The notes under the pieces were generated by a model. The model had not been told where the DNA came from. It searched no databases and worked only from the letters and a program-made list of their open reading frames with translations. 15,812 nt of DNA from Verrucomicrobiota bacterium (GTDB lineage Bacteria; Verrucomicrobiota; Verrucomicrobiia; Verrucomicrobiales; DEV007), in NCBI GenBank assembly GCA_020630835.1, contig JAHDIL010000005.1, forward strand, positions 1 through 15,812, written 5' to 3'. The position numbers and the translations under genes are program-made. Of the stretch, positions 6,729-12,138 are shown one piece after another. Within the stretch, counting starts at the first letter, position 1. Every line of letters begins with the position of its first letter.

Positions 6729-8102
6729 ATGAATTTAGCCTTTGCAGTCTGTGCGCTTGCCCTACTCACCGCTTCTACCCTTGCTTCGAAACCCCCAAAT
6801 TTAGTGGTCATCTTTACCGATGACCAAGTCCACGACGCGATCGGTTACAGCAACCCTCATGTAAAAACACCAAATCTCGACGCTCTGGCAGCCCGGGGCG
6901 TCATCTTCGATCGCGCCTACGTCTCCAGCCCGATTTGCGCGGCAAGCCGAGCCTCTCTCATGTCAGGCACATTTCCGCAAGAGAATGGAGTCGTAGGTCT
7001 AGCTCAGGAGAATTTCACGGCCTACCGTAAAGGCGGGGAAAAAGCGCATCTCACGCTGCCTTCACAACTAAACCAGCTCGGCTATCATACCGTCCTCCAC
7101 GGGAAATCTCACCTCAAGAACCCCCTGCACTATGGCTTCCAAGCAGGCCTCGAATCTGGTCCACACGATGACGTTAAGACATTCGCCAACGTTAAGAGGT
7201 TCCTGGAGACCTACGAAAAGAATGCCCCTTTCTTTCTCTGGCTGGCACCTCACCAGCCCCATATGCCGCTCCTGCCCTCGCAAGAGTGGTTAGATCTATA
7301 CCCCCTTGGATCCATTGCGCTACCCTCAAACTTTCGGATCGAGCCGCTCCCTAACAGCATCTTCAATCAGGGTGTTCCGGGTGAACTATTCTACCGCGAC
7401 TCAAATTACTCAAAGAATGCAAAAAAGCTTTCTGGAGGGCCGCCCCGCTCCGCTGATGTAATGAAGGAGTTTATCCAATATTACTATGCAGTCGTTAGTC
7501 ATCTGGATCATCAGATAGGTAACTTCATAACTCAGCTGCAAGAGGCTGGCGAAGTCGATAACACATGGATTTTTTTCCTCTCTGACAACGGCTATCACTT
7601 GGGGGATCACGGGCTGGGAAACAAAATTACCATGCATGAGGAGAGCGTTCGTGTCCCTATGTTTGCCGTCCCTCCAAAGAACCATCCGGAGGCAAAATAT
7701 AAAACCCGGACCGAGTCTCTGGTTTCCTCGCTGGATATTTACCCCACTCTACTTGAGCTAGCAGGCGGTAAGGCACCTGATAAAACTCGCGGAAAAAGCC
7801 TTGTTCCACTGCTCAATAGCCCGACCAGCGAGCATCACCCCTATATCTTCAGCGAATGCGTAGGAGTTCGAGGAAAGCCTAGAGAAGGGCATCGCATGGT
7901 ATTTAACGGAACCCTGAAGCTCGTTCTAACAGACGCCGATGAATATCATCTCTACAACCTGAAAACTGATCCTGATGAGCTGAAAAATATATTCCCCACT
8001 AAAAACTCGTTTCCCGAAGAGCTCCGAAGATTACACTCGGAACTTACCGTCTGGATGAGATCAATCGGTGATCGCTCGGCACCTCCCCTCCCTCAGCAGT
8101 AG
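6729..8102 (+). CDS. secreted S1-family sulfatase
   Basis: A 457-residue type I sulfatase that hydrolyses sulfate esters, probably outside the cytoplasm. The formylglycine site is CAASR (70-74) followed by ASLMSG, with Cys70 as the residue to be converted. Metal and sulfate ligands are visible: Asp31-Asp32 in FTDDQ, Lys126 in HGKSH, His175/His178 in APHQPHMP, Asp286-Asn287 in SDNGYH, and Lys299 in GNKIT. The LYNLKTDPDELKN segment near the C-terminus is typical of choline- and iduronate-sulfatase-like members. Substrate is unknown; a sulfated polysaccharide would fit the inferred lineage. The hydrophobic N-terminus (1-19) has no Lys or Arg before its core, and an in-frame TAA at 6723-6725 excludes an upstream start. 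No maturase gene is in the window. It may have its own promoter. Confidence 0.93.
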   Translation: MNLAFAVCALALLTASTLASKPPNLVVIFTDDQVHDAIGYSNPHVKTPNLDALAARGVIFDRAYVSSPICAASRASLMSGTFPQENGVVGLAQENFTAYRKGGEKAHLTLPSQLNQLGYHTVLHGKSHLKNPLHYGFQAGLESGPHDDVKTFANVKRFLETYEKNAPFFLWLAPHQPHMPLLPSQEWLDLYPLGSIALPSNFRIEPLPNSIFNQGVPGELFYRDSNYSKNAKKLSGGPPRSADVMKEFIQYYYAVVSHLDHQIGNFITQLQEAGEVDNTWIFFLSDNGYHLGDHGLGNKITMHEESVRVPMFAVPPKNHPEAKYKTRTESLVSSLDIYPTLLELAGGKAPDKTRGKSLVPLLNSPTSEHHPYIFSECVGVRGKPREGHRMVFNGTLKLVLTDADEYHLYNLKTDPDELKNIFPTKNSFPEELRRLHSELTVWMRSIGDRSAPPLPQQ

Positions 8103-8111
8103 CGAACCTTA

Positions 8112-8155
8112 CTGACATTTTTCTGACATCTTCTTTACGGTCTGCTGACACATCC
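8112..8155. promoter_or_regulatory. Pho-box-like 11-nt direct repeats
   Basis: CTGACAT occurs at 8112-8118 and 8123-8129, exactly 11 nt apart, each followed by a T/C-rich 4-mer. CTGACAC at 8145-8151 lies a further 22 nt on, so all three share one 11-nt grid, with a degenerate unit (TTTACGG) at 8134. PhoB boxes are 11-nt repeats of CTGTCAT plus an AT-rich 4-mer; these units differ at one base. The block lies between the sulfatase stop and the VWA start, upstream of an operon encoding an OmpR/PhoB-type regulator. The repeats are seen; binding and autoregulation are inferred. Confidence 0.6.
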
Positions 8156-8182
8156 GCCGCAAGTGTTGCGTAGGGTGGAGTC

Positions 8183-9553
8183 ATGACGAAAATATCGTTT
8201 CTCTCCAAGTCAGTGCTCGCAGGATCTTTCCTTGCCGGCAGCCTCTTCAGTTCTGCTCCAGCTAACGCCGCAGAGTCACTCGTGTCCGTGCAGACGAAAG
8301 TGGATCGACCCATTCTCTCCGCTAACGGTGGCCGACAGGATGTCGTCATTCAGCTCAAGGTAGGCGGTGGTAAAATCGTCTCACCTGAGAAAAGACCACC
8401 TTTGAATGTCGCTGTCGTCCTTGACCGAAGCAGCTCCATGAAGGGGAAAAAGCTTCAACAGGCGAAAACCGCCACGCACTCCGTCATCGAGAAGCTTGGT
8501 CCAAATGATAATTTCTCCCTGATCAGCTACAGCGACGAGGCGAGAGTCATGGTTCCTTCTGAGCCTATCGGAAATCGCAAAAAATTCCTTCGCCGCCAAG
8601 TCGACCGACTCAACGCCAGTGGCTACACCGCTCTCTACGCCGGGGTTGAGATGGGCGGCGAGCAAGTGGAGGAATGGGCTAGCGAAAACAAAATCTCGCG
8701 CGTCATCCTCTTATCTGATGGACAAGCTAACCGAGGCCCAACAAGCCATAGTGAAATCTCACAACTTGGCGTCAAATTGGCCAAGAAAGGCATCTCCGTC
8801 ACTACCATTGGTCTGGGCGACGGATTTAACGAACAACTAATGGCAGCACTCGCCAACGCCAGTGATGCGAATTACTATTACGTGGCCGATGTCGAGGATC
8901 TCGATGAGATTTTCCGCAGCGAGCTAGGAGAACTGCAGAGCATCGTAGCCCGAGATCTGAAAATTAAAATCGAGCTTCCAAAGGGCGTTTCCCCTATCCG
9001 CCTTATCGGGAGTGACGTGCCCGTTTCGGAAAACCTAGTGACTCTCGATTTCAACACCTTATCCTCTGAGCAGCAAAGAAATTTCCTGCTCCAATGCACG
9101 GTCGACCCAAAGCAGGCCAACCTAGCTAGCACCCTAGCTGATGTGCAGGTAACCTATGCCACGGCAGACGGCGCTGCCACGAAGGAAGCAAACAACTCCC
9201 CTCTCTTGGTGACCACCAACGATAACGAAGAAATCGCGGCAGCAGCCGAAGATAAAGAGATTCGCGCTCAAGCAATTGTTTTCGAGAACCGCGCCCGTCT
9301 CACGCAAGCCGTAGCCCAAAATGACAAAGGTGATACTTTCGCCTCAAGACAGATCTTAGATCAGCAATCAGCTGTCGTCGGGAAGGCCTTAGCAGCAGCA
9401 CCAGCTTCCTCGAAACCTGCCCTACGTGAGGAGCTCAATCTCCTCAGAAAAGCAAAGTCACAAATAGAATCTACCAGCGGTCTAAAGAAGCGCGAACGAA
9501 AGTCGATCCTCAATCGCCTAAACTGGCAAAAAAGTGGCAAGGACATTAAATAG
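8183..9553 (+). CDS. secreted von Willebrand factor A domain protein
   Basis: A 456-residue exported VWA protein. A signal peptide (basic n-region, core 9-24, cleavage near ANAA at 27-30) precedes a beta-rich stretch (31-72), a VWA domain (about 74-250) and a tail ending in basic, helical-looking sequence (about 350-456). The metal-ion-dependent adhesion site is complete: DRSSS (Asp81, Ser83, Ser85), Thr149 in SGYTAL and Asp179 in LLSDGQ. Such domains bind protein partners through a divalent cation. The ATG follows GGTGGAG at 8174-8180, a purine-rich ribosome site that is rather close. It is first in a probable operon, 51 nt before a sensor kinase, behind Pho-box-like repeats. I infer a periplasmic or surface partner, possibly a ligand or modulator of the kinase; direct evidence is absent. 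Confidence 0.88.
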   Translation: MTKISFLSKSVLAGSFLAGSLFSSAPANAAESLVSVQTKVDRPILSANGGRQDVVIQLKVGGGKIVSPEKRPPLNVAVVLDRSSSMKGKKLQQAKTATHSVIEKLGPNDNFSLISYSDEARVMVPSEPIGNRKKFLRRQVDRLNASGYTALYAGVEMGGEQVEEWASENKISRVILLSDGQANRGPTSHSEISQLGVKLAKKGISVTTIGLGDGFNEQLMAALANASDANYYYVADVEDLDEIFRSELGELQSIVARDLKIKIELPKGVSPIRLIGSDVPVSENLVTLDFNTLSSEQQRNFLLQCTVDPKQANLASTLADVQVTYATADGAATKEANNSPLLVTTNDNEEIAAAAEDKEIRAQAIVFENRARLTQAVAQNDKGDTFASRQILDQQSAVVGKALAAAPASSKPALREELNLLRKAKSQIESTSGLKKRERKSILNRLNWQKSGKDIK

Positions 9554-9604: not shown

Positions 9605-11431
9605 ATGAAACGCATCAGCTTAACCTTTCTCTTTGCCATCATCCTGCCAGCCATCGTGCTGGCGGGATTTGGGCTATATGCGGTCAGGGCACAAAACCAA
9701 ATCCTTACACTCCAAGAGGAGGAAATCCTTCTCAACAAAGCAGAAGGTATCGCAACAGAGGTAGACGGGTTTTTCGATGATCTTCGCGTCTTCTATGGAG
9801 AAGAGTTAGACCAATTCCTGAACGACTATAACGGGTCTAAGATCGAAGATGACTTTTCAAATCAGTTTCCGGAAAGATGGAACCAAATCAGTTCCGCCGC
9901 CGCCATCGCTGCAGGGCAAGAGACTGTAAAAATGGGGAAAGACTCGGAGAATGACACGTCCTTCTTCCAAAAAAACTCCGACCTATGGAAACAAGCAGAC
10001 TCTCCCGTCGTCAGCCAGGCTCCCGCTCTTATCCTGAATAGGGCAGCGGAAGCCCTTGGGAAAACAAAGCAGAACCTCCCAGAAACCAAAAAAAAAGTCG
10101 CCTTAAACAGCATAGAGCCTCAGCAGCGCCAACGGGGCGCGCTACTCAATGAAGGCATGCTGGATATATCCAAATCTACAATACCACCGGCACCCTCGTC
10201 ATCAAAACCAAGCAGAGAAACGCAGAGCGCAAGCCTGCCCTCTCGACCGATGGCCACCCCTTTCTCGCTTGCTCTCACGCAGCGCGATCCAGAGGGCGCT
10301 TTCACACGAATGCACGACGGTGAAATACACACTCTCTTCTGGCGTAACCACCCCAACTACCCTGAGCTAACCTTCTGGGTAGAGGTCGACCAACAAGCCA
10401 TCATCGAAGGAATCGAGCGAATTGTCTCCTTCGTCCCCTTCAGCAAATTAGAGCACGCTGCCCCGATCGCTACGCAGGTGCACAATATCCGCGGCCAGCT
10501 CGTAGCACATTCCGCCTACGCCGAGCCGAACGCTACCTCTCGAGCCCAGACCTCACTCAGCCCCCTTTTACCAAACTGGACAGTCACAGCCATCGGCTCT
10601 CCCGCCCCATTCTGGGCACGCTTCTCCCAGCAGCTTTCCCTCATAACCATTTTGTTTTTTCTCGCTCTCGTTCTTCTCGCCTCATGGCTCCTTATCCGCA
10701 GCATGAGAGCCGAAATGCGGCTAGCCGCCCAAAAGACCGACTTCGTGGGAAATGTCAGCCACGAGCTAAAAACCCCACTAACATCCATCCGCATGTTCTC
10801 TGAGATGCTACAACAAAACTCTGGTGCCGATGCTGAAAAGGTGAGTAGCTACGCCGGGGTAATCGAGAAGGAGTCACGCCGCCTAGGGCGCCTCATTCAT
10901 CGATTACTCGACTTTTCCCAACTCGACAGGGGAACCATGAAACTGGATACCTCGCGAGTGGACCTTCGCACCATCACAGAATCGGCTATCAAGCTGTGCC
11001 GCGCAGACCTCGAGAAAACAGGTATGGAGACAACGCTCGAATGGGGCAGTCCCTCGTCACTCACGATCGATGGAGATGAAGACCTCCTAACGCAGGTCAT
11101 CGTCAACCTCCTGACAAATGCTTGCAAGTATGCTGCGCAAGGCAGGGTCATCCACATCTCCTCACGGGAAGAAGAGACGGGTAAAAAGTTGACCCTAACC
11201 GTCGCCGATAGAGGCCCGGGTATACCCAAAAATGCTTTGCGTAAAGTTTTCGAAAAATTCCACCGCCTTGACAACTCTCTCACCTCTGAGCAAAGCGGAG
11301 CAGGTATAGGACTAGCTCTTTGTCAGGAAATTATTCAACTACATGGAGGCAGCATCTCCGCTCGCAATCGACATGGTGGTGGCGCTGCTTTTGAGGTTCA
11401 CCTCCCAATAGCTACGCAAGAGACATCATGA
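9605..11431 (+). CDS. membrane sensor histidine kinase, PhoR-like
   Basis: A 608-residue inner-membrane histidine kinase. TM1 is at about 5-24, a long periplasmic region spans about 27-340, and TM2 is at about 344-365. The cytoplasmic part holds HisKA with the H-box FVGNVSHELKTPL (His386 is the phosphorylated residue), then HATPase_c with N-box NLLTNACKYA (501-510), G1 DRGPGIP (535-541), F-box EKFHRLD (550-556) and G2 GAGIGLALC (565-573). Only about 20 residues separate TM2 from the H-box, too few for a HAMP domain. The periplasmic part has no sensor fold I recognise; it includes acidic amphipathic stretches (35-90) and a Pro/Ser-rich linker (190-220). It follows the VWA gene by 51 nt and overlaps the regulator start by 4 nt (ATGA). 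Signal unknown; phosphate or envelope stress are candidates. Confidence 0.94.
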   Translation: MKRISLTFLFAIILPAIVLAGFGLYAVRAQNQILTLQEEEILLNKAEGIATEVDGFFDDLRVFYGEELDQFLNDYNGSKIEDDFSNQFPERWNQISSAAAIAAGQETVKMGKDSENDTSFFQKNSDLWKQADSPVVSQAPALILNRAAEALGKTKQNLPETKKKVALNSIEPQQRQRGALLNEGMLDISKSTIPPAPSSSKPSRETQSASLPSRPMATPFSLALTQRDPEGAFTRMHDGEIHTLFWRNHPNYPELTFWVEVDQQAIIEGIERIVSFVPFSKLEHAAPIATQVHNIRGQLVAHSAYAEPNATSRAQTSLSPLLPNWTVTAIGSPAPFWARFSQQLSLITILFFLALVLLASWLLIRSMRAEMRLAAQKTDFVGNVSHELKTPLTSIRMFSEMLQQNSGADAEKVSSYAGVIEKESRRLGRLIHRLLDFSQLDRGTMKLDTSRVDLRTITESAIKLCRADLEKTGMETTLEWGSPSSLTIDGDEDLLTQVIVNLLTNACKYAAQGRVIHISSREEETGKKLTLTVADRGPGIPKNALRKVFEKFHRLDNSLTSEQSGAGIGLALCQEIIQLHGGSISARNRHGGGAAFEVHLPIATQETS

Positions 11432-12138
11432 GCCAGACCGCTACCAGTATCCTCATCGTCGAAGACGACGATAGTATCCGATTAGGGCTGAGTGAGGTGC
11501 TTACTCATCACGGCTTTCAGACATCGGCTCTTTCAGATGGCCTCGACACCGTCGAAACCGTCTGCGCTAACAAACCTGATCTCATCATTCTCGATGTCAT
11601 GCTACCGCACGCCAGCGGTTATGATATTGCTAAGGCTCTTCGGGCGAAACAAATCTTCACCCCTATCCTAATGCTAACGGCAAAAGGACAGGAGTTAGAC
11701 AAAGTAATCGGCCTACAAGCTGGTGCCGACGATTACCTAACAAAGCCTTTCGGACTAGAGGAACTCCTCGCCCGCGTCAATGCACTTCTGAGACGGACCC
11801 AACAGTGGACAAATGCAGAGGCACCGCAGCAACCAGCCATTCTTACCGCTGGCAACATCACCATCAACGCCACCAATCACACTATCGCGCACAAGGATGG
11901 CCCAACCTATCCGATCACTCCCAAAGAAATGGACCTACTCGGATGCCTCTACGCTCGGCGAAATACAGCTGTCCCTCGAGATGTAATCCTCAACGATGTG
12001 TGGGGATACGACTACATGGGCACAACGAGAGCCTTAGATCAATGCGTAGCACAACTGCGTAAGAAGCTAAAAAGCGACGAGGCGCAGTCTTTCGTGATCG
12101 AAACGGTGCATGGAGTGGGTTACCGACTATTGTCGTAA
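11428..12138 (+). CDS. OmpR/PhoB-family response regulator
   Basis: A 236-residue DNA-binding response regulator. The receiver domain (1-125) has the acidic pocket EDDD (12-15), phospho-acceptor Asp56 in LIILDVMLP, Thr84 in LTAKG and Lys106 in LTKPFG. The C-terminal winged helix (about 140-236) shows the family pattern: PITPKEMDLLGCLYAR, then VPRDVILNDVWGYDY, the recognition-helix region with RALDQCVAQLRKKL, and the wing IETVHGVGYRLLS. The ATG overlaps the kinase stop (ATGA), indicating translational coupling and cognate pairing. PhoB-type members bind head-to-tail 11-nt repeats, the arrangement found before the VWA gene, so autoregulation is likely. The next gene, mscL, is 100 nt downstream; I saw no clear terminator between them. 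Confidence 0.95.
   Translation: MSQTATSILIVEDDDSIRLGLSEVLTHHGFQTSALSDGLDTVETVCANKPDLIILDVMLPHASGYDIAKALRAKQIFTPILMLTAKGQELDKVIGLQAGADDYLTKPFGLEELLARVNALLRRTQQWTNAEAPQQPAILTAGNITINATNHTIAHKDGPTYPITPKEMDLLGCLYARRNTAVPRDVILNDVWGYDYMGTTRALDQCVAQLRKKLKSDEAQSFVIETVHGVGYRLLS

Follow-up and report, generated by a model that had tools for sequence, protein, structure and literature searches.

A four-copy array of 11-nt repeats conserved across Verrucomicrobiota is a probable autoregulatory operator of a VWA-kinase-regulator operon

We analyzed a 15,812-nt stretch of Verrucomicrobiota DNA (the window) and found an array of four direct repeats in front of an operon that codes for a VWA-domain protein, a histidine kinase, and a response regulator (Table 1). 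The array is conserved across the phylum and linked to this operon, and in part of the relatives it stands at a constant distance from a -10-like hexamer. Very probably, the array at 8112-8155 serves this operon as its operator, with the regulator encoded there (11428-12138) as the binding protein; that regulator would activate transcription in a positive feedback loop. The most likely arrangement is an autoregulatory operator that overlaps the -35 region of the operon promoter. Control of an operon by its own two-component regulator, through tandem 11-nt repeats in front of it, is a known principle. The open-licence papers we searched describe neither array nor operon in a title or abstract, which is no proof of absence from print; within that literature the system appears to lack a description, as do its consensus and its targets. 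Regulators of Verrucomicrobiota are scarcely characterized; the array offers a specific DNA handle on a widely retained two-component system and points to further targets.

Table 1. Coordinates of the array and neighboring features in the window, with the small-RNA loci predicted in relatives.
Feature	Position	Strand	Evidence or remark
Sulfatase gene	6729-8102		Upstream of gap 8103-8182
Copy 1, CTGACATTTTT	8112..8122	+	Sequence; slot kept in 40/40 loci
Copy 2, CTGACATCTTC	8123..8133	+	Sequence; slot kept in 40/40 loci
Copy 3, TTTACGGTCTG	8134..8144	+	Sequence; alignment columns T24 and A26 invariant
Copy 4, CTGACACATCC	8145..8155	+	Sequence; TGAC invariant in 40/40; would cover the -35 position
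Putative -10 hexamer, TAGGGT	8171..8176	+	26 nt after start of copy 4; block TGCGTAGGGTGG identical in nearest relative, stretch before it changed
Secreted-type VWA-domain protein, first gene of operon	8183..9553	+	PF00092, 82 bits
Membrane histidine kinase	9605..11431	+	PF00512 and PF02518
OmpR/PhoB-family response regulator, proposed ligand of array	11428..12138	+	PF00072 and PF00486; helix signature TRALDQCVAQLR
Predicted small-RNA loci, genus g24	L128, L130-L133, L135, L138-L140, L142, L215, L218, L220, L222, L223		

A first-pass annotation of the window had reported CTGACAT at 8112 and 8123 and CTGACAC at 8145 on one 11-nt grid in the 80-nt gap 8103-8182. We confirmed these three repeats and their register, and found a fourth copy that had been overlooked. 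The heptamer TTTACGG at 8134-8140 completes four 11-nt units, giving a 44-nt array. We regard the 8134 slot as a true copy because relatives show TTTACAG, TTTACGG, CTGACG, and similar sequences there; it is the weakest slot of the window array, which counts against our preferred reading. The array consensus is a YTKACA hexamer in four head-to-tail slots on an 11-nt grid, and the window array scored 23/24 against this degenerate hexamer in the four slots.

We examined the conservation of the array at loci for the VWA protein. A search of 114 related genomes gave some match in 105, mostly weak paralogues. Forty loci were fetched around the best matches and joined with the window to make 41; one (L083) was dropped, as its contig ends at the gene and leaves no upstream sequence. 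The array was present in 40/40 VWA loci with upstream sequence, window included. Scores were 24 (n=2), 23 (n=21), 22 (n=15), and 21 (n=2), with a selection effect because the best grid within 300 nt was taken for each locus. Spacing was exactly 11 nt in every one of these loci, and 14 of the 44 array columns were invariant. The commonest base of a column had a mean share of 0.86 across the hexamers and 0.58 across the spacers, compared with 0.38 over the 30 nt that precede the array. In the nearest relative, whose VWA protein is 73% identical, the array and the block TGCGTAGGGTGG are kept and the stretch between them is altered. Among named records (metagenome assemblies of Verrucomicrobiales and Akkermansiaceae), 21/24 loci carried the array, and in the remaining three the upstream sequence is missing or almost entirely so; this set is not independent because it consists mostly of the same genomes. 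The annotation had held that absence of the repeats from relatives would speak against an operator, and they were instead kept throughout the 40 VWA loci. This conservation is stronger proof of the array than the shuffle statistics given below. In eight loci (L063, L064, L070, L073, L074, L082, L085, and L088) a GC-rich hairpin and T-run of the upstream gene runs into copy 1, whose TTTACA begins within the T-run.

We built a sequence-only model (R1) from the 40 arrays and ran it on the 114 relatives and on a phylum-wide sample of 194 genomes. Forty-six of the relatives have a VWA match at E <= 1e-50, and the best R1 match reached E <= 1e-4 in 43 of them, 40 of which are training genomes. It did so in 8 of the other 68 relatives. 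At E <= 1e-5 we counted 50 sites in the relatives, made up of 35 training sites and 15 others. These 15 preceded a VWA orthologue (3), a kinase without VWA (2), a giant protein (2), a small-RNA gene (5), a 2330-aa protein (1), an 811-aa VWA-domain paralogue (1), or a small uncharacterized gene (1). In the phylum sample, R1 matched at E <= 1e-3 in 25/194 genomes, with 27 sites outside the first genome set. We examined 24 of these, leaving out two without a locus and L302, which overlaps L320. Seventeen of the 24 lie directly upstream of a VWA orthologue with 30 to 39% identity; no VWA orthologue lies downstream of the remaining seven (L301, L308, L315, L317, L320, L321, and L323). We extended the 17 loci already known to carry the VWA gene, and the VWA-kinase-regulator set was complete in 16, while the contig of the 17th ends. 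A single transcript is uncertain in L383 and L389 because the gaps between their VWA, kinase, and regulator genes are larger than elsewhere. We regard the linkage of the array to the VWA-kinase-regulator operon in the phylum sample as the decisive result.

The window site is the sole strong R1 site of its own genome, which is 52% complete. A second R1 match there (G000, C159, E 0.04) has two copies, a matrix score of -9.0, and a position at a contig end, and we rejected it as a chance match. Seven weak R1 sites (L217, L219, L225-L228, and L231) also look like chance, with two or three copies and no common gene.

The regulator gene overlaps the kinase gene by 4 nt, and a gene for an MscL-type channel comes next. 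Both domains of the regulator exceed their cut-offs (receiver PF00072, 102.7 bits; winged helix PF00486, 79.8 bits). Operators of the OmpR/PhoB superfamily are expected to have direct repeats on a helical-turn period of 10-11 nt, and the array forms a strict 11-nt grid in 40/40 loci. The earlier proposal of an 11-nt direct-repeat operator of the OmpR/PhoB kind before this operon is strengthened by its conservation in relatives, as a prediction from sequence. The recognition helix carries Asp-Gln (DQ) in 33/33 array-linked regulators in which that part is complete, and LDQ in 16/16 array-linked regulators at the phylum level. The linked regulator is the likely ligand because the array tracks the two-component genes as well as the VWA gene and because these regulators share a recognition-helix signature. 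Autoregulation, which the first-pass annotation had suggested, is likewise the reading best favored by the linkage of the array to the VWA-kinase-regulator operon.

Variants of the operon also carry the array. It precedes a kinase-regulator pair without VWA in L108; a 435-aa gene, kinase, and regulator in L120; and kinases without VWA in L136, L145, and L146. We did not find the regulator gene in the available sequence of these last three loci, which counts against binding by the linked regulator. Five paralogous operons for a secreted protein, a kinase, and a regulator (L208-L212) have looser upstream arrays of the form TTGACA-N5-TTTACA, with R1 scores of 2 to 16. Operator and regulator of these paralogues may have diverged together, although five cases are suggestive only. 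The VWA protein of the window scored 62 bits over part of the marine sortase target model TIGR03788, below its cut-off of 551.65.

The spacing of the array from the putative sigma-70 -10 hexamer recurs in part of the relatives. In 21 phylum-level loci a -10-like hexamer of the TATnnT type starts 26 nt after the start of copy 4, with the first T in 17/21 and the last T in 20/21. The 15 small-RNA loci described below have a -10-like hexamer at 25 nt (xAxxxT in 14/15). The pattern was weaker in the 40 VWA loci, where offset 26 ranked third by mean score and xAxxxT occurred in 20/40, which counts against our reading. We infer activation rather than repression because copy 4 sits at the -35 place with a -10-like hexamer at 25-26 nt. 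In the proposed mechanism, the four half-sites would seat two regulator dimers. The position of copy 4 at the -35 place suggests that the phosphorylated regulator would most likely bring RNA polymerase to a promoter whose -10 is at 8171-8176 and switch on the operon, which would in this way raise its own expression. Judging from the kind of genes that are linked, the signal probably arises at the cell envelope. A -10 at this position predicts a transcript start at about the ATG at 8183 and therefore an mRNA without a leader. By eye, there is no obvious Shine-Dalgarno sequence at 8177-8183 of the window or at the same place in relatives, and the distance from array to ATG is nearly constant in the window's genus; both features suggest a leaderless mRNA.

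We found the array before several other genes in relatives. In nine genomes (L102-L107, L121, L126, and L129) it stands before a gene for a giant protein, roughly 1000 to 1300 aa long and cut by its contig in L106. This first giant is mostly followed by a second, whose later part matches the PilQ model of Akkermansia in L122 and partly in L107. In five genomes (L109, L112, L113, L147, and L232) the array stands before a 2330-aa-type protein located behind a VWA gene. The two kinds of giant resemble each other distantly, at 20 to 23% identity, and Pfam gave no match for any of them. L104:2883-6500, L104:6530-10000, and L122:12-4682 appear to be tandem giant envelope proteins, the second with a secretin part resembling Amuc_1098, the type IV pilus secretin PilQ of Akkermansia (PMC4960237). 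The match of this giant-secretin fusion to the NCBIfam model for Akkermansia PilQ (NF042912) reached 419 bits in L122, below the cut-off of 750. The second giant behind some arrays contains stretches matching Amuc_1098 and differs from it in its far greater size and in a long additional region at the N-terminus; these proteins belong to the relatives, not to the window.

In genus g24, 15 array sites in nine genomes are followed by a conserved stretch of 109-130 nt instead of an open frame. The stretch contains an intrinsic-terminator hairpin of 12 pairs, five of them changed on both sides. It is a predicted multicopy small RNA with the invariant core CTTC-TGGCTGTTGG. A model of this RNA found 22 places at E <= 1e-8, all in the same nine g24 genomes, including the 15 used for training. 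Ten loci submitted to Rfam gave no match at the gathering threshold. Among the matches listed, exact antisense matches to the invariant core fell only on the small RNA's own loci, and those with one mismatch showed no recurrent target gene by inspection. In both G103 and G100 a copy of this RNA sits immediately before the orthologous kinase gene, and in L207 the predicted small RNA lies between array and kinase. The g24 genomes have a kinase and a regulator, the latter sharing 67 to 69% identity with the G072 regulator, and VWA is absent. L207 is the only case among the nine g24 genomes in which the kinase-regulator pair has a recognizable array, a further point against our preferred reading.

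These additional sites bear on the identity of the ligand. Another regulator of the same specificity is conceivable because some array sites have no two-component gene nearby. An unlinked OmpR/PhoB-family regulator might bind the array and control a wider envelope regulon in which the operon is one target, and the arrays before giants (nine genomes), 2330-aa-type proteins (five), and the g24 small RNA, none with an adjacent two-component pair, are what such a regulon would contain. We nevertheless consider this unlikely: the one linkage that recurs across the phylum is to the VWA-kinase-regulator operon, and the linked regulators share their recognition-helix signature. We tentatively suggest a phylum-wide envelope circuit in which the operon regulates itself, the same array governs the secretin-linked giants and the g24 small RNA, and the operon mRNA is nearly leaderless in the window's family. 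If this circuit exists, the operon mRNA of that family should start at the VWA start codon or within a few bases of it.

The first-pass annotation had read the array as a Pho box with a one-base-shifted consensus in this lineage, bound by a PhoB-class regulator. Such a box for the global phosphate regulator would share much with the array. The E. coli PhoB box consists of CTGTCAT units of 11 nt, as described in PMC4415409, and CTGACAT is one base from this core. Both are head-to-tail 11-nt repeats with seven conserved and four loose bases, and the array, like the E. coli box, would lie at the -35 region. The linked kinase and regulator belong to the PhoR/PhoB superfamily, and the family assignment of the regulator stands. 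The assignment to PhoB proper is not supported, since the regulator scored 175.4 bits against the NCBIfam PhoB model TIGR02154 (cut-off 296.2), 130 bits against PRK10161 (cut-off 471), and 154 bits against the Bacteroidota PhoB model (cut-off 270).

The phosphate genes of the lineage also argue against a Pho box. The array was present in 0/30 phoU loci with 1.5-kb flanks (best R1 matrix score -0.5) and in 0/30 pstS loci over up to 600 nt upstream (best score 6.8); the training minimum is 27.7. Four of the 30 pstS loci had less than 600 nt upstream, and start positions for minus-strand pstS genes assume full flanks. The window contains a Porin_O_P gene (PF07396) at 1193-2392 with no array nearby. 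In the 300 nt before pstS (30 loci) we counted TGTCAC 15 times and GTGACA 17 times, compared with means of 2.4 and 1.8 and a maximum of 8 each in shuffled sequence; 17/30 loci lack both words, and several positive loci are near relatives. Some of these words form pairs 11 nt apart, and those before pstS in L234, L246, L250, L253, and L255 are candidate true Pho boxes of the lineage. The enrichment of words close to CTGTCAT suggests that the lineage keeps a classical-looking phosphate box and that the array belongs elsewhere. The recognition helix of two phoU-linked regulators also differs from that of the array-linked ones, with Asp-Ser (DS) and Asp-Thr (DT).

We rejected the Pho-box reading on the 30 phoU and 30 pstS loci, with their limited flanks, and on the pstS word enrichment, and regard it as highly improbable; the one-base likeness to the E. 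coli box is no evidence for a shifted consensus. The array core is YTKACA rather than CTGTCA, in four copies with a fixed register, without a link to pst or phoU, and with a regulator far under the PhoB cut-off. The geometry differs as well. In E. coli phoA the -10 lies about 17 nt after the start of the last pho-box copy, whereas the putative -10 of the array starts 25-26 nt after the start of its last copy. These distinctions separate the two-component system from the phosphate box for which it would be mistaken.

We also compared the array with background sequence. Twenty thousand Markov shuffles, drawn from the window's local sequence only and scored by the same best-grid rule, reached at best 19/24, and did so 13 times. 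Outside the array, the highest-scoring places of the window reached 17 (+ strand) and 18 (- strand). Exact CTGACA occurs eight times on the + strand of the window, three of them in the array. Across the 114 related genomes, a three-copy pattern gave 80 matches in 39 genomes, and the reversed pattern, used as a control, gave 13 matches in five genomes, with 5 of the 13 in G052. In one stretch of that genome (G052:C347:4552-4623) perfect CTGACATTTAT units follow one another at least seven times; this simple tandem repeat mimics the array and is matched by the true pattern too. We rejected a chance origin, as shuffles reached at most 19/24 against the 21-24 observed and the reversed pattern was far rarer. 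The -35 consensus is TTGACA, one base off CTGACA, and yet it is hardly credible that the array reflects chance, sequence bias, or plain promoter elements, given that the four copies keep strict register and 14 columns are invariant across genera, that the shuffles did not reach the scores, that a single -35 element has no need of an 11-nt array, and that there are phylum-level sites outside the training set, 17/24 of those examined standing before a VWA orthologue.

We compared the array and its regulator to other OmpR-type systems. KdpE is described as binding the half-sites TTTATA and TTTACA, 5 bp apart (PMC3264566), which resemble the TTTACA copies of the array in a near-identical hexamer and the same 11-nt period. 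KdpE differs in having two half-sites and in controlling a potassium pump, and its kinase and target genes are unrelated. The cyanobacterial HLR1 element of RpaB, given in PMC9241938 as two repeats of (G/T)TTACA(T/A)(T/A) spaced 2 nt apart, shares the TTACA core, the direct repeats, and the OmpR type of regulator; as described there it has a period of 10 and two copies, unlike the array with its period of 11 and four copies. The window regulator scored 181 against the RpaB model, with a cut-off of 330. Its closest named model relative was MtrA of actinobacteria, at 196 bits and below the cut-off of 300, and the nearest solved structures were RegX3 (163 bits) and MtrA (153 bits), both from actinobacteria, from whose systems the window operon differs in its kinase and neighborhood.
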